A stretch of 38,709 nucleotides of DNA from the NCBI GenBank assembly GCA_024762975.1, contig JANTGJ010000018.1, positions 1-38,709 on the forward strand. Direction: 5' to 3'. Source of the stretch: Candidatus Krumholzibacteriia bacterium. GTDB taxonomy: Bacteria; Krumholzibacteriota; Krumholzibacteriia; LZORAL124-64-63. The position numbers were made by a program, and so were the translations under genes. Of this stretch, positions 24,263-35,291 are shown one piece after another; position 1 is the first letter of the stretch; the number at the start of each line of letters is the position of its first letter. The notes under the pieces were generated by a model, which was not told where the DNA came from, did not search any database, and worked only from the letters and a program-made list of their open reading frames with translations.

Positions 24263-25084
24263 ATGACGACCGGTACCTCGAAAATCTCACCCCCCGGTCT
24301 GGATCTGCCCAGCAGGTTGGGCCGTGGCGCACGCCTGACGGCGGAGGAATGGTTCTGGGCCATCGGCTACGCCTACGCACTGTTCCGTCATACCGCGAGC
24401 CTGTTGCGGAACAGGAAGATCAAATCGCCGGTCCTGATATCCCAGATCTATTTCACCGGCGTGGAAGCACTGCCGATCCTGGCGGTCATCTCGCTGGGGA
24501 TCGGTGCGGCGGTGATCATCCAGGGCATTTCCCTGCTGCCCCAATTCGGCCAGGGCGAATTGACCTACAAGATCCTGATCCTGGTGATCACTCGCGAGTT
24601 GGGTCCGTTGCTGACGGCCCTGATCCTGGCGGCGCGGTCCGGGAGTGCGGTGACCACCGAAATCGGGAACATGGTCGTCGACCACGAAATCGAAGCCTAC
24701 GTGGCGGCGGGGATCAATCCCCTGAGCCACCTGGCCGTCCCGCGCCTGATCGGCATCACGGTGTCGATGGTCTTTCTCAATCTCTACTTCAACCTGTTCG
24801 GGCTGTTCGGATCCTGTTGGATCGGTTCGCTGATCCACGGGATTCCGCTCGGGCAGTACCTGGGGAGTCTGGTTCTGGTCATGACGGCCAGCGATGTCCT
24901 GTCGTCACTGGCCAAGAGTGTCGTGTTCGGACTGATCCTGGCCACCGTCGCCACGTATTTCGGTTTTCAAGTGGAACGGGCGGTGACCGAAGTACCCCAG
25001 AAGACCATCCAGTCGCTGGGCGTCAGCATGACCCTGTGCGTCGTGGCCAACCTGGTGATCTCGATCCTCTTTCGACTGGGGTAG
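24263..25084 (+). CDS. mlaE: MlaE-type permease of an MCE lipid transporter
   Basis: A 273-residue protein of the MlaE/YrbE family. Landmarks are the IYFTGVEALPILAVISLGIG region, the strongly conserved VITRELGPLLTALILAARSG stretch (about residues 109-128), GNMVVDHEIEAYVAAGINPL (about 137-156) and four to five membrane helices. MlaE is the inner-membrane permease of MCE systems that move phospholipids or other hydrophobic compounds between the inner and outer membranes. It is the first gene of a tight four-gene operon (MlaE, ATPase, MCE, lipoprotein). The ribosome site at the ATG is weak. Confidence 0.93.
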   Translation: MTTGTSKISPPGLDLPSRLGRGARLTAEEWFWAIGYAYALFRHTASLLRNRKIKSPVLISQIYFTGVEALPILAVISLGIGAAVIIQGISLLPQFGQGELTYKILILVITRELGPLLTALILAARSGSAVTTEIGNMVVDHEIEAYVAAGINPLSHLAVPRLIGITVSMVFLNLYFNLFGLFGSCWIGSLIHGIPLGQYLGSLVLVMTASDVLSSLAKSVVFGLILATVATYFGFQVERAVTEVPQKTIQSLGVSMTLCVVANLVISILFRLG

Positions 25085-25087
25085 ACG

Positions 25088-25771
25088 GTGCGGATCGAAT
25101 TGAAAAACGTGGCAGTCGAACTGGGAGGTCGCTCCATCCTGAACGACATCGACCTGCGGTTTGCCCCGGGCGAGATCGTTGCGATCCGCGGACACTCCGG
25201 CAGCGGCTTGAGCGTGCTGCTGAAAACGGCCGCGGGCCTCCTCGCCCCGACGAGCGGCGGGGTATTCTATGACGGTCACGACTACGGGGCCCTCGGCGAG
25301 CGGGAAACCGTTTTGTTGCAGACGCGAACGGGCTTCATGTTCCAGGACGCTGCACTGTGGGCCAACATGTCGCTGGCCGCCAACCTCGACCTGCCCCTGC
25401 AGGCCAAATTCCCACAGGAAGGCACGGCCGCAAGGCGACAGCGGGTGGCTGTCGCCCTGGACGACTTCGGCATTTCCCTCGATCTGAACAAGCGCCCGGT
25501 CGATCTCTCGCTGGGCGAGCAGAAGTTCCTGTCGTTCCTGCGGGCGGCATTGCCGGAACCCGAAGCGATCCTTCTTGATGACCCCCTGGCCGGCATGGAT
25601 GACCGATCTGCGGAGATCCTCCTGAAACATCTGACGGTGATGAAGACACGCGGTGCTGCGGTCGTGCTCGGTAGCCACGGCTCCGACGCCGCGATCGATC
25701 TTGCGGATCGTCTCGTCGTCCTCGACCAGGGACGCATCCTGGTCGCACGAACCGGCATGGAGACACGATGA
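25088..25771 (+). CDS. MlaF-like ABC ATPase with degenerate Walker A
   Basis: A 227-residue ABC ATPase of the MlaF group, starting with GTG 3 nt after mlaE. Q-loop Gln86, the signature LSLGEQ (140-145), Walker B Asp164 and switch His197 are all present. The Walker A motif reads GHSGSGLS (35-42): the invariant lysine is leucine at residue 41 (codon TTG). The catalytic glutamate after Walker B is aspartate (LLDDP, Asp165). In standard ABC proteins the lysine contacts the ATP phosphates and the glutamate activates water, so ATP hydrolysis is likely weak or absent unless the fold compensates. The motif is otherwise intact and the frame is open, so this is not an obvious pseudogene. It overlaps the MCE gene by four bases. 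Confidence 0.88.
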   Translation: MRIELKNVAVELGGRSILNDIDLRFAPGEIVAIRGHSGSGLSVLLKTAAGLLAPTSGGVFYDGHDYGALGERETVLLQTRTGFMFQDAALWANMSLAANLDLPLQAKFPQEGTAARRQRVAVALDDFGISLDLNKRPVDLSLGEQKFLSFLRAALPEPEAILLDDPLAGMDDRSAEILLKHLTVMKTRGAAVVLGSHGSDAAIDLADRLVVLDQGRILVARTGMETR

Positions 25772-26790
25772 AGCTGATGTTGCGGCACAACGACAAACTC
25801 GTCGGGACCTTCCTCCTGATCGGCCTCCTGTTTCTCGTCGGCACGGTCGCCTTCGTCGGAGTCAGCCAGAGGTGGTTCCGCTCCGACCTGGAATACATCA
25901 GCACTTTCGAAACGGCCCAGGGACTCAGTCCGGGGCTCGCGCTCGAGTTCCGTGGATTCGCCATCGGCCGGGTCAAGAGCCTGGGCCTGGACGACTCCGG
26001 GCGTGTCCGTGTAGTGCTGTCCGTGCAACCGGAATACGCCGACCGGATCGTGACGGACTCGGTCGTCGAACTGGCCGTGCAGCCTCTGGGCTTCGGCGCG
26101 AACCTGCTGTTGTATCCTGGCCTCGGCGGTGAAGAACCGTTACCGCCCGGCTCGACGATTCCCTCGACCGACACGGCCTACGGGCGGCGGCTTCTGTGCG
26201 AAGGCAAGGTCGACCGGCCCCAGGGGCACGACGAAATCACCGCCCTCATCCAGTCCCTGCCGCCCCTGGTGGGCCAGGTCGGCACCCTGGTTGCGGACCT
26301 GGACGAACTCCTGGTGGGGCTGGACCAGCGCCTGATGGGCCGGGACGATCAACCCGGCACCGGTCTTTTGAGCGCCGCCGACGGTACGGTGCGGGAATTC
26401 GGAGAGGTGGCCGGACGTTTCAATGAACTCACCGGACAGATCGACCGGATCCTGGCCAACCTGACGTCCCTGGCCGAACGCCTGGCCGATCCGACGCGCC
26501 TCATTCCCACGCTTCTGGGACCGGACGGCAGCGCGGCCGCCCTGTTTCAGGACGACGGGGCACTCTTCCAGGACCTGCGCGAGGCCATGGATGAACTGCA
26601 GAAGATGATGGTCTTCCTGAACGAGTCGACGCCGGAGATCTCCGTTCTGATCGAGGAGACCACCAGCGCGCTCGCCGAAAGCGAACAGGTGATGCAGGGT
26701 CTGAAGAACAACCCCCTGTTGCGAGGTGGCATCTCTCCGTTGGCCGAGGAATCCGTAGTCGACGGCGGCTTCCGCGAAGGGGGCAATTAG
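25768..26790 (+). CDS. MCE-domain protein (MlaD-like substrate-binding subunit)
   Basis: A 340-residue protein with an N-terminal membrane helix (about 12-32) and one MCE domain (about 40-125: YISTFETAQGLSPGLALEFRG, IGRVKSL, PLGFGANLLLYPG). A long, mostly helical C-terminal region follows (about 150-320) with coiled-coil-like heptads, as in PqiB/LetB-type or mycobacterial Mce proteins. MCE domains form periplasmic rings or tubes through which lipids pass. The start overlaps the ATPase stop as ATGA. The helical tail is longer than in E. coli MlaD (183 residues), suggesting a protein that spans further across the periplasm. Confidence 0.93.
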   Translation: MKLMLRHNDKLVGTFLLIGLLFLVGTVAFVGVSQRWFRSDLEYISTFETAQGLSPGLALEFRGFAIGRVKSLGLDDSGRVRVVLSVQPEYADRIVTDSVVELAVQPLGFGANLLLYPGLGGEEPLPPGSTIPSTDTAYGRRLLCEGKVDRPQGHDEITALIQSLPPLVGQVGTLVADLDELLVGLDQRLMGRDDQPGTGLLSAADGTVREFGEVAGRFNELTGQIDRILANLTSLAERLADPTRLIPTLLGPDGSAAALFQDDGALFQDLREAMDELQKMMVFLNESTPEISVLIEETTSALAESEQVMQGLKNNPLLRGGISPLAEESVVDGGFREGGN

Positions 26791-26791
26791 A

Positions 26792-27652
26792 ATGGCGAGA
26801 CGACGCATCCCAAACCGCCTTCTGATCCCCGTCGCACTGGCGCTGACCGCGCTGGCCGGCTGCTCATCCCTGCCCAAGGAGCCCGTCGCCGATTCGGAAC
26901 CGGCTCGTCGGAGTTCATCCTTCCACGCGTTGGGCGACAAGCACCTGCGAGCCGGGCGGTTCGAGAAGGCGTGTACCTTCTACGAGCAGGCGCTGGCCCT
27001 GAACGCCTCGATCGATGATCTCTCGGGAGTGGCGCGAGCCTTCTCGTCTCTGGGCCGGGCCCGGTTGAATGCCGGAAAGATCGACGAAGCCGAGATCGAC
27101 TTCCGGTGCGCCCTGGACTCGGCCGCCGATCTGCGCGACCCGACACAGGCGGCGCGCGCACTGACCGGACTCGGCGAAGTTGCGTTGCATCGGCAACGGG
27201 CGGAAGAAGCCCGCTCGTGGATCGAAAGAGGACTGCGACTTTCCTTGCCGGAATCCAGCGTGCAACGGACCATCCTGAGGCACGATCTCGGGTCGGCCAC
27301 CTGGATGGCCGGCGACGTCGAAGGAGCCGAAGAACATTTCCGCCAGGCCCTGGTCCTGAACGAGGCACTCGGGAATCGGATCGGGATCGCGGCCGACTGT
27401 TACTCCCTGGCCCGCCTGGTCGATGAATCGGGAGATCCCGATCAGGCCCGATTGCTCGCCCGGCGAGCTCTCCGAAACGACAAGAGGGCGCAGAACCCCC
27501 GGGGCGTAGCGGAGGACCTGAGCCTGCTCGCATCCCTGGCCGAACGTCAGGGAAACGCGACAGCGGCCGCCGACTACCACCGGCGGGCGCAACTCGCATG
27601 GCAGTCCCTGGGCCGATCCGCTCCCGTCGAAAACAAAGGGGCGGGTCGCTGA
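26792..27652 (+). CDS. TPR-repeat lipoprotein of the MCE operon
   Basis: A 286-residue lipoprotein: signal with lipobox LAGC (Cys23), then about five to six tetratricopeptide-like repeats (from ALGDKHLRAGRFEKACTFYE at about 46 to about 265). It begins 1 nt after the MCE gene and is preceded by AAGGGGG, so it belongs to the operon. TPR repeats bind protein partners. By position it could replace the auxiliary lipoprotein (PqiC or LetA-type partner) of other MCE systems, for example by bridging the MCE protein to the outer membrane. No MlaC, MlaA or STAS gene is in the window. The role is inference from operon membership. Confidence 0.83.
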   Translation: MARRRIPNRLLIPVALALTALAGCSSLPKEPVADSEPARRSSSFHALGDKHLRAGRFEKACTFYEQALALNASIDDLSGVARAFSSLGRARLNAGKIDEAEIDFRCALDSAADLRDPTQAARALTGLGEVALHRQRAEEARSWIERGLRLSLPESSVQRTILRHDLGSATWMAGDVEGAEEHFRQALVLNEALGNRIGIAADCYSLARLVDESGDPDQARLLARRALRNDKRAQNPRGVAEDLSLLASLAERQGNATAAADYHRRAQLAWQSLGRSAPVENKGAGR

Positions 27653-27694: not shown

Positions 27695-28684
27695 TTACTT
27701 GAGAAATTTACCCGGCCGGTAGCTCACCTGGAAGATGAACGCGGTATCGCGCTCTTCTTTGCGGAAATTATTGTTGTAACTGGTGACCACGGGGATCCGC
27801 ACACCCAGGTAGGGACTGATCATGCCCAACTTGTAGGAGATTCCGGGGAATAGATCCACCAGCGTGCCGCCCATTTCCGCTCCGTTGTCGATCGAGGGAG
27901 TGTCGTCGCTGTACTCGGTTTCCGACTTCCCGTCTCCCGTCAGGACGACCGCGCCGCCGAGATGGACCCACCAACGGGTGGCGACCCGGTAGCGTCCGAA
28001 TGCCGAGGCGATGACCTCGTCGCCCATCGTCCGCGTGGTCGTCGCCCTCACCGTCCCCCAGTCCTGGATGGTTTCCCCGGAGGTATTCTTGCGGAACATC
28101 AGGCCCGCCAGCAGGCCGGTTTTGGCGGTCGAGCGGCTGTACTGGCCGCGTAGCAGGTAGTCGGTGGTACCGGATCCCAGGGGCACGGCATACTCCAGCC
28201 CCGAGTCATCCTTGACGGTCTTCTCGTCATCGCCGGTGGGCAATTTGACGCTCGCCGCGAAGCGCAGCAACGTGCTTGGTGAGGCGAAGGTTTTCGTGTA
28301 CTCGCCGTCCAGCACGATATCGCCCAGGCCGCTGGCCGAGGCGTCATAGCCCCAGTAGTTCAAGGTGCGGTCCCAGATGATCGGGACCTGGGCCTTCACC
28401 GCAAAGGCGGGCGAGAACTTGTACGACGGGGTCAGAACGCCGGACTTCATCTTGTCGGTGACATCCACGTAGGCGCTGATCGCCAGGTTCGAGTCGACAA
28501 CCGGGGATTCCGTCGTGGCCGGATCCTCACCGACCGGTGCGAAGTCCTCGATCGTGGGAAACACGAGGGGCCCCAACGTCGTGTCGTAGGTCTCTCCATG
28601 ATCCTCGTCCTGGGCCATGACCGCGGGAACAGCGAAGACCATCAGGACCAGCAGCATCAAAAGCGTGAACCGGTGCATTCTCAT
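27695..28684 (-). CDS. Predicted outer-membrane beta-barrel of the phenol MetA/transporter-like family
   Basis: A 329-residue exported protein: signal peptide (about residues 1-24, ending AVMAQ), then repeated amphipathic beta strands rich in aromatic and glycine residues, finishing FIFQVSYRPGKFLK, typical of an outer-membrane barrel. Motifs such as ASGLGDIVLDGEY, VKLPTGDDE and LGSGTTDYLLRGQYSR fit the phenol_MetA_deg/transporter-like barrel family. Substrate unknown. The start at 28684 is supported by GGGAGG, 7 nt upstream; the reading frame extends further, but without a ribosome site. It is adjacent to the MCE operon but on the opposite strand, with its own promoter and terminator. Confidence 0.82.
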   Translation of the reverse strand: MRMHRFTLLMLLVLMVFAVPAVMAQDEDHGETYDTTLGPLVFPTIEDFAPVGEDPATTESPVVDSNLAISAYVDVTDKMKSGVLTPSYKFSPAFAVKAQVPIIWDRTLNYWGYDASASGLGDIVLDGEYTKTFASPSTLLRFAASVKLPTGDDEKTVKDDSGLEYAVPLGSGTTDYLLRGQYSRSTAKTGLLAGLMFRKNTSGETIQDWGTVRATTTRTMGDEVIASAFGRYRVATRWWVHLGGAVVLTGDGKSETEYSDDTPSIDNGAEMGGTLVDLFPGISYKLGMISPYLGVRIPVVTSYNNNFRKEERDTAFIFQVSYRPGKFLK

Positions 28685-28718
28685 CGAAGAACCTCCCTGG
28701 GGTGAATTTGACAGATCA

Positions 28719-28746
28719 ATCCTAGCACAGCCGGAAGGCGTTGCAA
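28719..28746 (-). promoter_or_regulatory. Promoter of the beta-barrel gene
   Basis: On the minus strand TTGCAA (28741-28746), a 16-nt spacer and TAGGAT (28719-28724) with an extended -10 TGC. The predicted start of transcription lies about 28 nt upstream of the ATG. No comparable promoter for the divergent SH3 gene was found. Confidence 0.5.
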
Positions 28747-28841
28747 TCACAATCAAATAGGATCGAAATGCATGGTTCGCATGCTTCGATGGTGATACCA
28801 TTGCCGGATCGGACCATCATTCGGAATACGGGAGGATTTTC

Positions 28842-29345
28842 ATGCAGGCGATGCGTCAAAACCGGGTCGGGCGACGGATCTGGCCGCTGCTGTTGCTCTT
28901 CGTTGCGACGGTGGCGTGGGCCGGAGCCGAGATCATGAGCGTGCAGGTGCGCTCCGGGCAACTCAGGGACAAGCCATCATTCCTGGGCAAGATCGGCGCA
29001 CCCGTTTCCTACGGCGACCGGCTGACCGTGATGGAAACACGCGGCGCCTGGGTCCGGGTCCAGGGCGCCGGCACCAGCGGGTGGATCCACTCCTCGGCAT
29101 TGACGACAAGGAAGCTGGAGCTGAAATCGGGATCGGACGATCTGAACGCCGGAGCCTCGGCCGGCGAGTTGGCGCTGGCCGGCAAGGGATTCAATGACGA
29201 AGTGGAAACCAAGTACCGCGCGGATCATCCCGAAGCCGACTTTACCTGGATCGACAAGATGGAGTCGGTGACGATCAGTCCCGAACAGGCGATCGAATTC
29301 CTCCAGGCCGGCGGGATCACCGATTCGACCGGAGGTGCGCAATGA
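28842..29345 (+). CDS. Periplasmic SH3-domain protein, first gene of the cAMP operon
   Basis: A 167-residue exported protein with a signal sequence (about residues 11-29, ending AWAGA) and a bacterial SH3-like domain (about 30-95; VQVRSGQLRDKPSFLGKIG, then YGDRLTVMETRGAWVRV and GTSGWIHSSAL). Bacterial SH3 domains often bind peptidoglycan or proteins in the envelope. The C-terminal 70 residues are unassigned. Its ribosome site is excellent (GGGAGG, 6 nt from the ATG). Its stop overlaps the following protease gene as ATGA, making it the head of a five-gene operon with a cyclase and channel. A sensory role is inference. Confidence 0.85.
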   Translation: MQAMRQNRVGRRIWPLLLLFVATVAWAGAEIMSVQVRSGQLRDKPSFLGKIGAPVSYGDRLTVMETRGAWVRVQGAGTSGWIHSSALTTRKLELKSGSDDLNAGASAGELALAGKGFNDEVETKYRADHPEADFTWIDKMESVTISPEQAIEFLQAGGITDSTGGAQ

Positions 29346-30250
29346 AATACCTGCAGACGCTCCTGCTTGCGACCGGCCTGACGGCTGTCCTGGCCCTGCT
29401 CGGTTGTTCAGCCGTTACACAGCTCGGTACCCAGATCGGACAGGGCACCGGAGTGATCACGCCCGAAGAAGGAGATTCCATCCGGCGCGTCAGCGATGCC
29501 GCCATCAAGTCATTCGAGGATCTGACGCCGGAGCAGGAATACTTCATCGGCCGTGCCGTGGGCGCGACCGTCCTGGAATCATATGCTCCGCTGGATGACC
29601 CGGGCGCCAACGAATATGTGAACCTGCTGGGCCAGTCCCTGGCCATGGCTTCGGACCGGCCGGCGACTTTCGGCGGCTATCATTTCCTGCTGCTGGACAC
29701 CGACGAAATCAACGCCTTCGCCGCTCCCGGAGGACTGATCTTCGTGTCCCGCGGACTGGTGGCGTGCTGCCCGAACGAAGACGCTTTGGCCGCCGTGCTG
29801 GCTCACGAGATCGGTCACGTGCAGAACCAGGACGGCTTGCGCGCGATCAAGACCAGTCGCTGGACCAGCCTGGCCGCCATCAGCCTGGAGGAAGGTTTCC
29901 GCAACCTGGGCAACGAGGCGCTCCAGAACGTCGCCAACGAATTCTCCGGCTGCATCGACGACATCGCCCAGACGCTGGTCGTCAACGGGTACGCCCGCAG
30001 TCAGGAAATCGCGGCGGACGCCACGGCGGTGACCCTCCTGCGGCGCGTAGGCTATGACCCCCGCGCCCTCGATACGATGCTGGCAGAAATGGACCATCGT
30101 CTCGAGCCGGGCGGTCCCGGATTCGCCAGAACCCACCCGTCGCCTTCGGATCGCCGATCGACGATCGAGCCGTTGCTGAAGGGGCCGGCACCGGCAGAGG
30201 CTCCGGCAGCCCGGCAGACCCGATTCGACCAGGCCATGGGCAACTACTGA
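29342..30250 (+). CDS. M48-family zinc metalloprotease lipoprotein
   Basis: A 302-residue lipoprotein (lipobox LLGC, Cys22) with an M48 protease domain: zinc-binding HEIGH (His155, Glu156, His159) and the downstream glutamate ligand in RSQEIAADATAV (about residues 219-230). A proline/alanine-rich tail ends the protein. It is related to the LoiP/YcaL/BepA group of periplasmic quality-control proteases, which act on misfolded outer-membrane proteins. It overlaps the SH3 gene by four bases and the cyclase gene follows by 1 nt, so an envelope-stress function feeding into the cyclase is plausible. Substrate unknown. Confidence 0.93.
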   Translation: MKYLQTLLLATGLTAVLALLGCSAVTQLGTQIGQGTGVITPEEGDSIRRVSDAAIKSFEDLTPEQEYFIGRAVGATVLESYAPLDDPGANEYVNLLGQSLAMASDRPATFGGYHFLLLDTDEINAFAAPGGLIFVSRGLVACCPNEDALAAVLAHEIGHVQNQDGLRAIKTSRWTSLAAISLEEGFRNLGNEALQNVANEFSGCIDDIAQTLVVNGYARSQEIAADATAVTLLRRVGYDPRALDTMLAEMDHRLEPGGPGFARTHPSPSDRRSTIEPLLKGPAPAEAPAARQTRFDQAMGNY

Positions 30251-30251
30251 C

Positions 30252-32264
30252 ATGGATCTACGGGCCGGCAGGCACGGATTGCTGATCGGGACCGGGGCTG
30301 CCCTGCTGGCCCTGGTCCTGTGGTTTTCCCACGCCCTCGACGGCTGGGAGAACAGCACCTGGACCTGGCGGGTCCGCGCCCTGTCCGGACCCGGCCCCCA
30401 TTCCGGAGAGATCGTGCTGATCCTGCTGGACCAGCCCAGCCTCGATTGGGGCGAAAAAGAGAACGGCCTGACCTGGCCCTGGCCGCGCGAGGTCTATGCT
30501 CCCCTGATCGACTTCTGCACCCGGGGCGGCGCTCGATCGGTATCCTTCGACGTATTGATGACCGAAGCGTCCGGATACGGGGTGTGGGACGACCGGGCCC
30601 TGGCCGAAGCCATGGCTCGCAACGGCCGTTTCATCGGCGCGCGCTTCCTGTCGCCGGTCCCCGACGGGGAGGGTGACGGCCGACTGGATGATCCAATCGC
30701 CGAAGTGGCCGACAACGCCCGGATGCTGGCCAACGTCAGCGACGTCCCGGACGCCGACGGTATTTTCCGACGCGCGAGCATGGTCCGCACATTCGCCGGA
30801 GAATCGATTCCCAGCCTGGGCGTCGCCGCCTGGCTGGTGGGCGAAGACTTGCCGGCCGCTGCCTGGAAAGCCCGGTTGCAGAGCCTGGCCATTGATCCGG
30901 CGGGCACCGCGCTGCTGCGCTATCGCGGGCACGATGCGTACACCACCTACGGAGCCGCCGCGATCATCCAATCGGAATTGCGACTGGCCGAAGGAGCCGT
31001 GCCCACGATTTTGCCGGAAGCGCTACGCGACAAGAATGTGTTCTTCGGTTTCAGCGCTCCGGGATTGATGGACCTGCGCCCCACGCCCTTGAGTAACGTG
31101 AGCCCGGGCGTGGTGATCCACGCAACGGTTCTGGACAACCTGCTGGGCGGAGATTTCCTGCGTGCAGCCGACGGCTCGGCGGTGGTGATCGGTACGGTGC
31201 TGCTGGCCCTGCTGACGGGATTTCTGGCCACGGTTTTTTCCAGTACGCGAGTGACCGTGGCCTTGGCGCTGGTCGCCGCCGGCGTTCCCGCCCTCGCCGG
31301 TTTCGCCGCCTATCCGCTGGGCTGGTGGTGGCCCATCCTGCCGGGTCTGACGGCCGCAAGCCTGGCCGGGTTCGGCGCCCTGGTCCGCAACTACGCCGTC
31401 GAGGGCAGCCAAAAGCGTTTCATCAAGCAGGCCTTCCGCCACTACCTGAGTCCGGCGGTGATCGATCGAATCCTGGTCGACCCCCACGCCCTGAAGCTGG
31501 GCGGAGAGCGCCGCGAACTGAGCATCCTGTTCATGGATCTGGTGGCGTTCACCAGCTTGTCCGAGGGACTGGAACCGGAAGCGCTGACCACCCTGCTCAA
31601 CGAGTATCTTTCCGACATGACCGAAATTATCCTGGAGGAGGGCGGTACCCTGGACAAATACCTGGGCGACGCCATCATGGCCTTCTGGAACGCTCCGCTG
31701 AGCCAGGAGGATCATGCCACACGCGCCTGCCGCGCCGCAGTTCGTTGCCAGCGGCGACTGATCGAGCGAGGTCCCGATTTCCGCGCTCGTTGCGGACGGG
31801 AACTGCGCGCGCGGATCGGCCTGCACACCGGACCGGTGGTCGTCGGGAACATGGGATCGCGTCAGCGCTTCGACTATTCGGTGCTCGGCGATGCGGCGAA
31901 TCTGGCCTCGCGTCTCGAGGGGGCCAACAAGCATTTCGGCACCGAGACCATGATCAGCGCGGACACCTTGGCCCAGGCCGGTCCGTTCCAGTGTCGGGCG
32001 CTGGGTCCGTTGCGGGTTGTCGGCCGACAGGAGCCGGTCGAGGTATTCGAGCTGACAGGACTTCCCGGCGAGGCCGAACCTCCGGGCTACGAAGTCTTTG
32101 CCGAGGCCCTGGCGGCCTGGCGCGCCGGCGACGACGACCGGACCGCCGACCTGTTCGCACGATTGTCCGATGATCCGGTCGCCCGCCGAATGTCGGAAAT
32201 CGGTCCCGGGTGGCAGGTGTGGTCCGACGACGGGAAGCGCGTGTGGGAACTCAAGAGCAAATGA
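30252..32264 (+). CDS. CHASE2-domain class III adenylate cyclase
   Basis: A 670-residue membrane enzyme: helix (about 9-27), a CHASE2 extracytoplasmic sensor (about 30-300), three membrane helices (about 312-380), and a class III cyclase domain (about 415-600). Metal-binding Asp429 (FMDLVAFT) and Asp473 (YLGDAIM) are present, as are the adenine-selecting Lys469 and the transition-state pair Asn550 and Arg554 (DAANLASR). The second adenine-binding position is Ser543, where the mycobacterial enzyme has Asp and cyanobacterial CyaC-type enzymes have Thr, so ATP is the likely substrate. All catalytic residues needed for cAMP synthesis are present. It follows the protease gene by 1 nt; the next gene resembles a cyclic-nucleotide phosphodiesterase. 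Confidence 0.94.
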   Translation: MDLRAGRHGLLIGTGAALLALVLWFSHALDGWENSTWTWRVRALSGPGPHSGEIVLILLDQPSLDWGEKENGLTWPWPREVYAPLIDFCTRGGARSVSFDVLMTEASGYGVWDDRALAEAMARNGRFIGARFLSPVPDGEGDGRLDDPIAEVADNARMLANVSDVPDADGIFRRASMVRTFAGESIPSLGVAAWLVGEDLPAAAWKARLQSLAIDPAGTALLRYRGHDAYTTYGAAAIIQSELRLAEGAVPTILPEALRDKNVFFGFSAPGLMDLRPTPLSNVSPGVVIHATVLDNLLGGDFLRAADGSAVVIGTVLLALLTGFLATVFSSTRVTVALALVAAGVPALAGFAAYPLGWWWPILPGLTAASLAGFGALVRNYAVEGSQKRFIKQAFRHYLSPAVIDRILVDPHALKLGGERRELSILFMDLVAFTSLSEGLEPEALTTLLNEYLSDMTEIILEEGGTLDKYLGDAIMAFWNAPLSQEDHATRACRAAVRCQRRLIERGPDFRARCGRELRARIGLHTGPVVVGNMGSRQRFDYSVLGDAANLASRLEGANKHFGTETMISADTLAQAGPFQCRALGPLRVVGRQEPVEVFELTGLPGEAEPPGYEVFAEALAAWRAGDDDRTADLFARLSDDPVARRMSEIGPGWQVWSDDGKRVWELKSK

Positions 32265-32274
32265 GGAACAAGTC

Positions 32275-33117
32275 ATGAACATCTTCTTCGGCGGCGTTCG
32301 AGGAACCGCTCCCCGCGCGGCTCCTGGCTATACACGCTACGGCGGGCACACGACCTGCCTCCTGGTATCCGGCCAACAGGGCGAGATCCTGGTGATCGAC
32401 GCCGGCAGCGGTATCCAGGAAATCAACCGGCACCTGCTGGAATCCGACCGCCGGGACCTGCTCCTGCTGCTGACCCACCTGCACCTCGACCACATCATGG
32501 GGTTGCCCACCCTGAGCCCCCTGTATGACCCCGACTGGCGGGTGCGGATGCTGGCCGGCGGACATACCGGCGCGCACCTGGCGCGGGTCGTGGACCGGGT
32601 GACCACGCCGCCGGTCTGGCCGATCTCCCTGGCCGACATGGGCGCCGAGGTCGATCTGGCCGATCACGTGCCCGATGCCGGCCCCATCGACTGGGGTGGG
32701 CTGAAGATCACCGGAACCGCAGTTCCCCACCCCGGCGGCTGTTTCGCCTGGCGCGTGGACGAACCGGCCACCGGTGCATCGTTCGTCTTTTCCACCGACA
32801 CCGAATGGTCCGCTGAAGCCAAGCGTCAGGACCGGGGCCTGCGTCGGCTCTGCACCCATCCGAATCCAGCCGATCTGTTGGTCATGGACGGCCAGTTCAC
32901 GGCGGAGGAACTTCCCGCACACGCGGGCTGGGGCCACAGTTCGATCGACCAATGCGCCGAGGCGGCGATCGAAACCGGCGTCGGACGACTGCTCGTCACG
33001 CACCACCACCCTGATTCCACGGACGATACGCTGGACCGGCTGGAGCAGGAGCTGTCCCGACTGTTCCCCGGGGCCGCTCTGGCTCGCCAGGGCGACACCA
33101 TCGAGCTGGGCCGCTGA
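32275..33117 (+). CDS. Metallo-beta-lactamase-fold hydrolase, candidate cyclic-nucleotide phosphodiesterase
   Basis: A 280-residue metallo-beta-lactamase-fold protein. The metal site THLHLDHIMG has His68, His70, Asp72 and His73; further ligands are VPHPGG (His), STDTE (Asp) and LVTHHHPDS (His). The HxHLDH form is the signature of class II cyclic-nucleotide phosphodiesterases (yeast PDE1 type), whereas RNase Z-type proteins usually have HGDH. With the cyclase 10 nt upstream and the cyclic-nucleotide-binding channel 23 nt downstream, cAMP hydrolysis is the natural inference. Another hydrolase activity (such as RNase Z-like) cannot be excluded. The start at 32275 has GAGGA upstream and begins at the first fold residue. 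Confidence 0.86.
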   Translation: MNIFFGGVRGTAPRAAPGYTRYGGHTTCLLVSGQQGEILVIDAGSGIQEINRHLLESDRRDLLLLLTHLHLDHIMGLPTLSPLYDPDWRVRMLAGGHTGAHLARVVDRVTTPPVWPISLADMGAEVDLADHVPDAGPIDWGGLKITGTAVPHPGGCFAWRVDEPATGASFVFSTDTEWSAEAKRQDRGLRRLCTHPNPADLLVMDGQFTAEELPAHAGWGHSSIDQCAEAAIETGVGRLLVTHHHPDSTDDTLDRLEQELSRLFPGAALARQGDTIELGR

Positions 33118-33140
33118 ATCTGCCGGAAGGAAACTCGATC

Positions 33141-34739
33141 ATGACTTCCTACGTTCCCTACACCATCGAGATCAGCGTACTGGTGAGTGTCTGGTTGCTC
33201 GCCCTCGGGCTATCGCATCCCCTGCACCGGCGCCTGCGTCAGGACAACGGGCCCCGGCCTTCCGCCCTGGCGGCCGATCTGCTGGCCCACATCGTGCGCC
33301 CCGGACTGATGCTCGTGATGGGACAGCTGCTGCTGTCGGCGGTGAACTACTGGCCGGCCGGCAAGCAGTGGATCGGTGAGCGACCGGCCCACGCGACGGC
33401 CTGGAACATGTTCTGGATCGGCGTCGTGCTGGTCGGTCTTCTGGAAGGGATCGCGCAACTGGGATTTCGCCGCCGCGGCAAGGCCTTTCCCCTGCCCGAT
33501 CTGTTGCTCGACATCCTGCGGGCAATCCTGCTGATCGCCGTGGGTCTGTGGAGCCTGCGCTGGGGACTCGGCATCAGTATCGGTCCGGTTCTCGCTTCGA
33601 CCGCGCTGGTCACCGCCGTGGTCGGCTTCGCCCTGCAGGGCGTGCTGGGCAACCTTCTGGCCGGCTTGTCCATGCACCTGGTCCGTACCCTGCGCCCCGG
33701 AATCTGGATCGAAGTGGATGGGATCACGGGCAGGGTAACCCGGACCAATTGGCGGGAAACGCGGGTGCGTACCCTCGGCGGCCATATGTACATCTTCCCC
33801 AACTCCACGATCGCCGGATCCAGGATCCACAACTTCAACGAACCCTCTTCGTTGCGCCGGCATACGATCGAGGTCGGCGCCAGCTACAGCGACGCGCCGG
33901 ATGAAGTGATCTCCGCTCTGCTCGAGGCCGTGCGGGACGTGCCCCAGGTGCGCAGCACACCGGCCCCGGAAGCCCTGATCACCCAGTTCCAGGACTACGG
34001 AATCAACTACCGCCTGACGTACTGGACCACCGAACTGCAGCTGGACATTCCCATCAGCGGGCACGTCAACCGCAACATCTGGTACCGGTTCAAGCGACGA
34101 GGCATCGAGATCCCCTTCCCGATGAGCGACAAGCTGCTCAACGATTTCATGGCCGTGGTCTACAACCAGCGCAAGCTGGCGCCGGAGTCGGAAGACACGA
34201 ATGCGACCCTGAAGGATCTGCTGTCCAGCGACCTCAGTAGCAAGGTGTTCGTCGACAGCCAGGGACAGGCCCTGGTGACCGGATCCGAGTGGGAGCAAAT
34301 TGCACCCCTGGTCCAACGGCAACCCTACACCGCGGGCGAGGTCGTCTGTCGGCAGGGAGAACCCGGGGAGAGCTTCTGGGTCCTGGCCGCCGGAGGCTTA
34401 CGGGGCCACGTGGACCAGGAAGGAAAGACGGCGACCGAATTCGATCTGGCACCCGGCGCGGTGGTCGGCGAGATCAGTCTGCTGACCGGCGCGCCCCGCA
34501 GCGCGACACTGACAACGACCACCGGCTCGGAGCTCCTTGAATTCGGACCCGAGGCTTTCAAAGCCCTACTGCGGTTGCATGACGATCTGCCGGAAAAACT
34601 GTCCCGGCTGGCCGCGGCGCGGGCCGAACAGAATCGAGAGGCACTGGAAGCCCTATCGCGACTCGCCGGTGTCGAGGCGTCCGTGGTCCTGGAAGAAAAG
34701 GGGATCCTCCGTCACCTGCTCGGCATCATCGGTAGGTGA
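33141..34739 (+). CDS. MscS-type channel with cyclic-nucleotide-binding domain
   Basis: A 532-residue membrane protein with about five membrane helices. The last is the glycine/alanine-rich MscS pore helix (VVGFALQGVLGNLLAGLSMH, about 157-176), followed by the MscS beta domain (RPGIWIEVDGITGRV) and alpha/beta C-terminal domain, then a cyclic-nucleotide-binding domain (about 390-500). The phosphate-binding cassette GEISLLTGAPRSAT is canonical, with Glu444 for the ribose and Arg453 for the phosphate. This is the bCNG layout, in which cAMP rather than, or together with, tension may open the pore. The ribosome site is GGAAGGA. It closes the operon begun at 28842. Confidence 0.93.
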   Translation: MTSYVPYTIEISVLVSVWLLALGLSHPLHRRLRQDNGPRPSALAADLLAHIVRPGLMLVMGQLLLSAVNYWPAGKQWIGERPAHATAWNMFWIGVVLVGLLEGIAQLGFRRRGKAFPLPDLLLDILRAILLIAVGLWSLRWGLGISIGPVLASTALVTAVVGFALQGVLGNLLAGLSMHLVRTLRPGIWIEVDGITGRVTRTNWRETRVRTLGGHMYIFPNSTIAGSRIHNFNEPSSLRRHTIEVGASYSDAPDEVISALLEAVRDVPQVRSTPAPEALITQFQDYGINYRLTYWTTELQLDIPISGHVNRNIWYRFKRRGIEIPFPMSDKLLNDFMAVVYNQRKLAPESEDTNATLKDLLSSDLSSKVFVDSQGQALVTGSEWEQIAPLVQRQPYTAGEVVCRQGEPGESFWVLAAGGLRGHVDQEGKTATEFDLAPGAVVGEISLLTGAPRSATLTTTTGSELLEFGPEAFKALLRLHDDLPEKLSRLAAARAEQNREALEALSRLAGVEASVVLEEKGILRHLLGIIGR

Positions 34740-34823: not shown

Positions 34824-35291
34824 GAGCTGGATCCCGCTGACCAGGCACGCCTCATGGACCCCCGGTTGACCCTGAGTCCGTTGCAGGGGCTGGTGGTGCT
34901 GGACGAAGCTCAGCGCAAACCCGAACTCTTTCCCCTGCTTCGCGTCCTCGTGGACCGACCCGGCAATGGTACCCGGTTTCTACTGCTGGGTAGCGCCTCG
35001 CCGGATCTGATTCGCCAGAGCGGAGAAAGTCTTGCGGGTCGGATCGCCTACCACAACCTGCCGGGCTTGAGTCTGTCCGAGACGGGCGGCCGCGAGCAGG
35101 ACAGGTTGTGGCTGCGTGGAGGGTTCCCCCGCTCTTATCTGGCCACGGACGAAGAGGCGAGCATGCGTTTCCCCTGGCCGAGAGAATCGTAGCGGTGCCG
35201 CTGGGATAACTTCGTTCAGCTCCCGATCCTCGAGAATACGGCACTACGACACCAGGTCAAAATCCTGCAGCGCAATTCTTCCAACCCGTAG
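34824..35291 (+). pseudogene. Decayed AAA/DUF4143-type ATPase fragment with possible transposase remnant
   Basis: A degraded gene in the roughly 670-nt stretch 34740-35407, which holds no intact gene. In one frame it reads ELDPADQARLMDPRL, then GLVVLDEAQRKPELFPLLR (Walker B), FLLLGSAS, SLAGRIAYHNLPGLSLSE and LWLRGGFPRSYLA, all typical of the AAA_14/DUF4143 ATPases. The Walker A part is missing and a TAG (35190) interrupts it. After the stop the same frame resumes with RWDNFVQ, matching the next family motif, so about 11 codons containing the stop look inserted. Further on, ENTALRHQVKILQRN resembles the N-terminus of integrase-type transposases, ending at TAG 35291; this last part is tentative. 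35292-35407 shows nothing. Confidence 0.6.

Follow-up and report, generated by a model that had tools for sequence, protein, structure and literature searches.

Do five adjacent genes on one strand of a Candidatus Krumholzibacteriia genome form a signalling circuit of their own, in which the maker, receptor and remover of one second messenger are encoded together with envelope proteins? The question is raised by positions 28,842 to 34,739 of the window (the whole 38,709-nucleotide stretch of DNA that was analysed), for which a sequence-only reading had proposed a self-contained cAMP circuit. The operon appears to be a member of a widespread signalling cassette without an existing name. From the domains and residues of its products we consider it probable that an envelope-sensing class IIIb adenylate cyclase makes cAMP that would gate a bCNG-type MscS channel, with a metallo-β-lactamase (MBL) phosphodiesterase ending the signal.

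Layout of the operon and its envelope proteins

28685..28841, no strand: divergent intergenic region of 157 bp, between the operon and a minus-strand gene for an outer-membrane-type protein
28842..29345, plus strand: SH3b protein, 167 aa, with one N-terminal hydrophobic segment/signal peptide and SH3_3 at aa 41-87
29342..30250, plus strand: M48 metalloprotease lipoprotein, 302 aa, with lipobox LLGC (C22), HEIGH (H155, E156, H159) and E222
30252..32264, plus strand: CHASE2 class IIIb adenylate cyclase (most likely), 670 aa, with an N-terminal transmembrane segment (TM), CHASE2 at 17-320, further TMs and a catalytic domain at about 420-600
32275..33117, plus strand: MBL-fold hydrolase, 280 aa, with [T/S]HxHxDH at 67-73, H152, D175 and H243, without the RNase Z arm
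33141..34739, plus strand: bCNG-type channel, 532 aa, with a TM region, MscS pore/beta/alpha-beta regions at about 140-330 and a cNMP-binding domain at 394-478

The five open reading frames follow one another with gaps of -4, +1, +10 and +23 nt, and their products match, above the Pfam gathering cut-offs, SH3_3; Peptidase_M48; CHASE2 and Guanylate_cyc; Lactamase_B_2 and Lactamase_B; and MS_channel_2nd/3rd and cNMP_binding, respectively, which bears out the common strand, spacings and domains first read from the sequence. A scan for terminators between the five genes found none. The true start of the minus-strand gene is probably at 28684, and the operon promoter likely lies within 28685..28841, a gap in which a promoter scan returned none and the sigma-70 consensus was unmatched.

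Downstream of its SH3_3 domain the first product has a helical C-terminal segment (aa 109-157, ELALAGKGFN..VE...DFTW.D.ME), conserved but without a Pfam match; a fold search with this protein recovered SH3 matches only, the C-terminal helices matching nothing. In the second product HEIGH and E222, the third zinc ligand, are invariant in 80/80 aligned members, and the lipobox cysteine C22 is found in 79/80. Like the proteases BepA and LoiP it is exported and has an M48 catalytic domain, but its partner genes are different and it falls below every curated cut-off (87.8 against 570 and 46.2 against 365 bits on the respective NCBIfam equivalog/exception models).

Predicted activities of the cyclase, channel and hydrolase

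The cyclase retains the metal-binding aspartates D429 and D473, the adenine-recognizing lysine K469, and S543, N550 and R554, the complete catalytic set that had been claimed for it. Across 67 aligned cassette cyclases the corresponding D/D/K/(T,S)/N/R positions are invariant, except for one row gapped at N550/R554. Its CHASE2 domain (PF05226; 156 bits against a gathering score of 26.3) is placed by the hydrophobic segments 10-28, 311-329 and 334-352 as an extracytoplasmic region between TMs. The catalytic domain can be aligned to the class IIIb adenylate cyclases 2w01, CyaB (3r5g) and CyaC (1wc1) with the K and T/S positions in register, although 2w01 has E at the lysine position. By these residues the protein is most likely a class IIIb adenylate cyclase, sharing the catalytic residues, including the base-selecting Lys and Thr/Ser, with P. 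aeruginosa CyaB and with CyaC, and distinguished from both by its CHASE2 sensor and its SH3 and M48 partners. A precedent for gating of CHASE2 cyclases by an envelope protein is offered by the Sinorhizobium cyclases CyaD1, CyaD2 and CyaK, whose output likewise depends on an envelope protein, the outer-membrane NsrA, but passes to a CRP-family regulator, Clr, rather than to a channel (PMC13001267). In the passages of that source consulted, no operon with M48, SH3 and channel genes is described for these cyclases (PMC13001267). A link between CHASE2 and osmotic responses was not found in the literature searched.

The bCNG channels are a group within the MscS family, defined from domains and heterologous tests and reportedly described by Caldwell in 2010 and Malcolm in 2012, two works listed among the references of PMC4560390; to our knowledge, neither a natural cAMP source nor a trigger has been described for them. 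The operon channel has the same arrangement, namely an MscS core (pore and vestibule) with a cNMP-binding domain at its C-terminal side, and PF00924, PF21082 and PF00027 are all above cut-off. Its phosphate-binding cassette is intact (G443-E444...R453-S454-A455), so that the Glu444 and Arg453 singled out earlier were correctly identified, and G443, E444 and R453 are invariant in each of the 21 channels whose aligned sequence reaches this site. Unlike the known bCNG channels, it is a constant part of an operon that also encodes a cyclase of its own, the MBL hydrolase and the two envelope proteins.

The hydrolase contains T67-HLHLDH73 together with H152, D175 and H243, in agreement with the MBL fold and HxHLDH motif originally noted, and HxHxDH is invariant in the 30 MBL proteins aligned. 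Its description as a class II phosphodiesterase has to be narrowed: the only Pfam matches are PF12706 and PF00753, and PF02112, typical of class II enzymes in the strict sense, is unmatched, whereas PF12706 represents the fold class to which the 'atypical class-II' enzymes belong (PMC9293780), whose combination of PF12706 and [T/S]HxHxDH is present here. This motif is no discriminator, because it is common to RNase Z and the atypical class-II phosphodiesterases. The protein indeed scores as high on RNase Z models as on the cyclic-nucleotide phosphodiesterase model, and far below both cut-offs (TIGR02651, 56.8 against a curated 292.95 bits; NF041851, an equivalog model that looks narrow, 48.7 against 400 bits). 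Its structure model (pLDDT 92.9) matches the folds of YhfI, which prefers cAMP/cGMP (PMC9117128), of the PhnP family, yeast PDE1 and Apyc1, and also that of RNase Z. With Rv1339, YhfI and C. glutamicum CpdA (PMC9293780) and phage Apyc1 (PMC9117128) it has in common the MBL fold, the [T/S]HxHxDH motif and the lack of an RNase Z arm; it differs in being encoded beside a cyclase, in scoring below the NF041851 cut-off and in having an activity that is here predicted only.

These observations bear on the alternative that the MBL protein, instead of removing cAMP, processes RNA or acts as another kind of phosphodiesterase (RNase Z or PhnP-like), which would reduce the circuit to maker and effector. 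RNase Z is its best match by both sequence and fold, and RNase Z models match all 30 members, but every such match is far below cut-off, the tRNA-binding arm is missing (about 28 residues against about 69 in 2cbn), a higher-scoring second RNase Z-like gene is present elsewhere in the genome (G000:C117), cyclic-nucleotide phosphodiesterases are among the fold neighbours, and the MBL gene tracks the cassette, occurring in 18/19 family genomes that have it and 0/19 of the others. We consider this alternative unlikely, though deserving of serious attention, and the protein a probable cyclic-nucleotide phosphodiesterase. Removal of cAMP by the MBL protein is nevertheless the weakest step of the predicted circuit: the protein fits a cAMP phosphodiesterase, but by sequence it cannot be told apart from RNase Z, and one family genome (G017) has a cassette without the MBL gene.

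Distribution of the cassette and alternative readings

Among the 38 genomes of the window's GTDB family, apparently Krumholzibacteriota, the cassette channel and the class III cyclase are present in the identical 19 genomes and in 0/19 of the remainder, and the SH3 protein in 18/19 of the former against 0/19 of the latter. The co-occurrence of channel ortholog and cyclase has a chance value of 2.8e-11 if the genomes are independent, which overstates the surprise because the genomes in the test are related. Five genera include both cassette-bearing and cassette-free genomes. A comparison with empty sites gave none, the flanking MlaD gene having no match in G001, a cassette-free genome of the same genus, or in three other family genomes. 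Across the family the genes keep the order SH3-M48-cyclase-MBL-MscS, except where contigs break and in the one genome without the MBL gene. Co-occurrence thus clearly extends beyond this genome, and this supports the earlier proposal that maker and receptor of one messenger belong to a conserved unit with two exported proteins.

A GTDB-wide scan with the SH3 protein gave 486 relatives, and in the best 80 of these loci M48 follows the SH3 gene in 80/80 and a CHASE2 cyclase is present in 72/76 testable cases, whereas in 23 of the 44 testable core loci both MBL and channel are missing from the surroundings. The universal core is thus SH3-M48-cyclase, with MBL and channel as add-ons, which qualifies the five-gene unit first proposed. 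This core is also carried by Desulfonema magnum (L063), a cultured relative. As those 23 loci are without MBL and channel, the core must have other outputs. Loci with both add-ons beside the core carry the labels Verrucomicrobiota, Lentisphaerota, Planctomycetota and Auribacterota; one further lineage (G136) has them in a different order, the channel being placed between M48 and cyclase. More distant CNBD-MscS channels (L050, L052-L054) had no cassette gene within the stretches examined around them.

Is the messenger private to the operon? The operon cyclase is the only class III cyclase in the genome (one Guanylate_cyc match), a class I cyclase was not found there, and the channel has the only cNMP_binding domain above the Pfam cut-off. 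A second, sub-threshold CNBD match (G000:C71) was discounted as a cAMP receptor, being a protein of 192 aa that lacks the GE...R cassette. As the channel is the sole recognised cNMP-binding receptor in this genome, cAMP is probably a near-private messenger of the operon. Many family genomes, cassette-free ones included, have other cNMP-binding proteins of CRP-like size. The notion of a closed circuit is thus unexpectedly supported for this genome, but cAMP is not always private, because relatives encode these other proteins.

In another alternative, the true unit is the envelope trio of SH3 protein, M48 protease and CHASE2 cyclase, feeding global cAMP signalling through CRP-like regulators, with channel and MBL as loose passengers. 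The core loci that lack both genes, the CRP-like-size proteins of many family genomes, and a cyclase tree on which the core is distributed more widely than the add-ons are in its favour. It is at odds with the perfect tracking of cyclase by channel in the family, with G000 and G024, which have no other cNMP_binding domain above cut-off, and with the presence of channel and MBL at the cassette in the other phyla and G136. We regard it as improbable.

A much more remote alternative is a Pycsar-like anti-phage system, with an infection-sensing cyclase and a cyclic-nucleotide-activated membrane effector. The PADLOC PycC model matches the catalytic domain with 108 bits, PycTIR models weakly match the channel's binding domain, and Pycsar likewise pairs a class III cyclase with a cNMP-activated, CNBD-bearing effector (PMC11224242). 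However, any class III cyclase is expected to match PycC, and Lys469 and Ser/Thr543, invariant in the 67 cyclases, are as in adenylate cyclases and unlike the pyrimidine-selecting residues of PycC clades B and E (compared with PMC11224242 by position, not structure). Furthermore, Pycsar includes neither a CHASE2 sensor nor SH3 and M48 proteins, the operon has an MBL hydrolase of its own, and no defence genes were noted among its immediate neighbours. Chance clustering of unrelated genes in a single genome, for which only the generic character of the individual domains could speak, has practically no likelihood and is rejected as already refuted by the order and spacing kept in the family and the core at about 80 loci in several phyla: the block is far beyond chance, and its inheritance as a unit across several phyla suggests a real signalling module.

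Proposed mechanism and its implications

In the circuit that we favour, the two exported proteins, SH3 protein and M48 lipoprotein, acting in the periplasm or at the outer membrane, might set the CHASE2 sensor activity of the membrane-anchored cyclase. The cyclase would then make cAMP, a step strongly suggested by its residues; cAMP would bind the C-terminal domain of the channel and alter its opening, for which occurrence pattern and residues together make a strong case. The change in opening would move ions or solutes and hence affect turgor or membrane potential, and with moderate confidence we predict that the MBL-fold enzyme would hydrolyse cAMP to end the signal. We infer from this that envelope state may be coupled to turgor. 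Only tentatively do we extend this to a broad envelope-surveillance system, in which the protease/SH3 pair sets the cyclase and a near-private cAMP directly gates the channel, with its own phosphodiesterase and no transcription factor.

No paper combining the parts of this cassette was found in the literature searched, mainly non-subscription papers. The operon brings together a candidate cAMP source, trigger side and off-switch of a bCNG channel, and the genera that hold genomes with and without the cassette provide a ready natural comparison. If the proposal is true, bacterial cAMP would act here as a fast local channel ligand rather than via CRP, and a function would be assigned to the SH3-M48-cyclase core of many genomes.

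Operon layout and co-inheritance in the family

At 28842-34739 five forward-strand genes stand head to tail, separated by -4, +1, +10 and +23 nt, and a further gene diverges from them:

gene 1, +: exported SH3b protein
gene 2, +: M48 lipoprotein protease
gene 3, +: CHASE2 class III cyclase
gene 4, +: metallo-beta-lactamase-fold (MBL) hydrolase, PF12706
gene 5, +: MscS channel with C-terminal cNMP-binding domain (CNBD)
27695-28801 (true start probably 28684), -: probable outer-membrane protein gene, divergent from the operon

Pfam bore out the domain calls of the sequence-only reading for all five genes, and the key residues it named are present and correctly numbered. Scans showed neither a terminator between the operon genes nor a sigma-70 promoter in the divergent gap 5' of them, and the internal gaps leave insufficient room for a conventional promoter. 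Immediately 3', 34854-35192 (+) holds a truncated AAA_14 ATPase fragment, probably a decayed gene.

The five families do co-occur beyond the window genome. Half of the window's GTDB family (19 of 38 genomes) has channel orthologs (46-60% identity, mostly full length); at this identity level no other genome of the 146 searched has one. The order SH3-M48-cyclase-MBL-channel is kept wherever the contig is long enough (18 of the 19 channel-bearing genomes fetched), and most gaps lie between -4 and a few tens of nt; of these 18, G017 alone lacks the MBL, and in two family genomes an additional gene separates cyclase from MBL. At this junction, loci L041 (7587-8371) and L035 (10633-11437) carry an inserted opposite-strand gene, whose translation resembles, by eye, a Cys-rich family of redox type with a small signal-transduction domain fused on.

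When all 38 family genomes were searched with Guanylate_cyc, cyclases turned up in exactly the 19 channel-bearing genomes and in 0 of the 19 others, with a second, weakly matching cyclase in one genome only. Two identical 19-genome sets have a chance of 2.8e-11 under independence of genomes, which family genomes do not have. The SH3 protein and the MBL are each present in 18/19 cassette-bearing versus 0/19 remaining genomes; the single SH3 miss is an 81% complete genome (G034), in which the contig with the channel is 3.3 kb long and ends inside the MBL. As both states, cassette present and absent, occur inside five genera, the state must have changed several separate times. Across the class the SH3 protein occurs in 18 of 80 genomes, all within the window's family and none in the other families, a distribution suggesting that the family acquired the cassette and then lost it repeatedly.

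Reach of the core and its add-ons

The SH3 alignment, scanned against GTDB as a whole, gave 486 relatives, the best 80 of which were fetched with flanks. Among these best 80, M48 follows SH3 in 80/80 loci and a CHASE2 cyclase follows the pair in 72 of the 76 testable by contig extent; 3' of the cyclase, 44 testable loci show MBL and channel (15), MBL only (5), channel only (1) or neither (23). Some of the 15 are contigs that belong to the window's family but were submitted under different names (L059 'Latescibacterota', L080 'Gemmatimonas'). Outside the family both add-ons are found at L060, L066, L068, L081, L088, L100, L102, L107, L110 and L133, with labels including Lentisphaerota, Planctomycetota, Verrucomicrobiota and Auribacterota, and in a closed genome (G136, locus L051), where the channel is placed between M48 and cyclase. 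In the latter a frameshift (L051:8737-10232) splits the channel between MscS core and CNBD, as either a true break or a sequencing error.

In the cyclase tree one 33-row clade (support 99) holds every add-on locus bar G136; outside it fall other loci with the core alone, which carry the labels Desulfobacterota/Myxococcota, Lentisphaerota and relatives. This distribution and the locus counts therefore identify SH3-M48-cyclase as a wide unit found across phyla, with MBL and channel as a variant of it. For many of the 486 loci it is possible that only the core operates, feeding global cAMP; this, however, leaves the perfect channel-cyclase linkage in the window's family unexplained. Four loci (L070, L074, L079, L096) have the SH3-M48 pair with no cyclase 3' despite adequate contig, and L079 and L096 share, by eye, a D-Ala-D-Ala-ligase-like gene in its stead.

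Envelope proteins and upstream neighbours

The SH3 protein carries a signal for export, and M48 keeps its lipobox in 79/80 members and its zinc site in 80/80. From the adjacency of these genes to each other (80/80) and to the cyclase (72/76) we infer that the SH3/M48 pair controls the CHASE2 sensor. Envelope control of such cyclases has a precedent in Sinorhizobium, where sensing via the outer-membrane protein NsrA raises cAMP synthesis by CHASE2 cyclases (PMC13001267). The SH3 C-terminal segment (aa 109-157, window 29165-29312; ELALAGKGFN..VE...DFTW.D.ME) is strongly conserved across phyla and not recognized by Pfam, making it a candidate new domain and a marker of the 486 loci in GTDB genomes.

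The divergent outer-membrane-type gene has no Pfam or NCBIfam match; relatives (42%) are likewise divergent and 5' of the cassette in loci L033 and L034, and its product is possibly a further partner of the circuit. Upstream of the operon, just beyond this gene, 24263-27652 (+) encodes MCE/Mla-type lipid transport components (MlaE, ABC ATPase, MlaD) as well as a TPR protein; MlaD had no match in four other family genomes searched.

Proposed synthesis, hydrolysis and binding of cAMP

Across 67 aligned cassette cyclases D429, D473 and K469 are invariant, as are N550 and R554 bar one gapped row, and position S543 is T in 65 and S in 2. Aligned to the adenylate cyclases CyaB (3r5g) and CyaC (1wc1), the catalytic domain has its key positions in register. 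It is the sole Guanylate_cyc match in the window genome (96% complete), in which no class I cyclase was found. A Pycsar-like defence role is unlikely, as PADLOC matches are generic and, compared with PMC11224242, the cyclase has base-selecting residues of adenylate type and a different sensor.

In the MBL, T67-HLHLDH73, H152, D175, H221 and H243-H244 vary little or not at all among aligned members, and Foldseek neighbours of its confident AlphaFold2 model (pLDDT 92.9) include RNase Z, YhfI, BA1088, the PhnP family, yeast PDE1 and Apyc1. It shares the [T/S]HxHxDH motif with the 'atypical class-II' phosphodiesterases YhfI, Rv1339 and CpdA (PMC9293780), of which YhfI prefers cAMP/cGMP (PMC9117128). 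RNase Z is slightly ahead in sequence score, with no curated cut-off reached among the models scored; the MBL nevertheless lacks the RNase Z arm, and a different gene of the window genome (G000:C117) is a better RNase Z candidate. On balance we lean towards the MBL hydrolysing cAMP. In one family genus (g12; L042:7373-8755, L043, L044, L047, L048) it bears a C-terminal extension of ~180 aa, a 152-aa stretch of which has no Pfam match.

The channel CNBD, akin in sequence to PKA regulatory subunit and Mesorhizobium CNG-channel domains, has the cassette G443-E444...R453-S-A, with G, E, R and A invariant in the 21 cassette channels covering the site.

The five-gene observation is thus confirmed and stronger than first stated. 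As for the self-contained cAMP circuit read into it, the outline was right, with the MBL and envelope-sensing steps putative. Each separate part is of an already known kind, and in the literature searched, which covers few subscription papers, the assembled, co-inherited circuit appears undescribed. Other family genomes, with or without the cassette, carry CRP-sized cNMP-binding proteins, so a closed circuit is not general, although in one relative (G024) the channel alone was recovered in the cNMP-binding search. A second match in the window genome (25 bits, 192 aa) falls below the Pfam cut-off and lacks the cassette; the channel thus carries the only cNMP_binding domain over cut-off there, and in this organism the circuit may indeed be closed.
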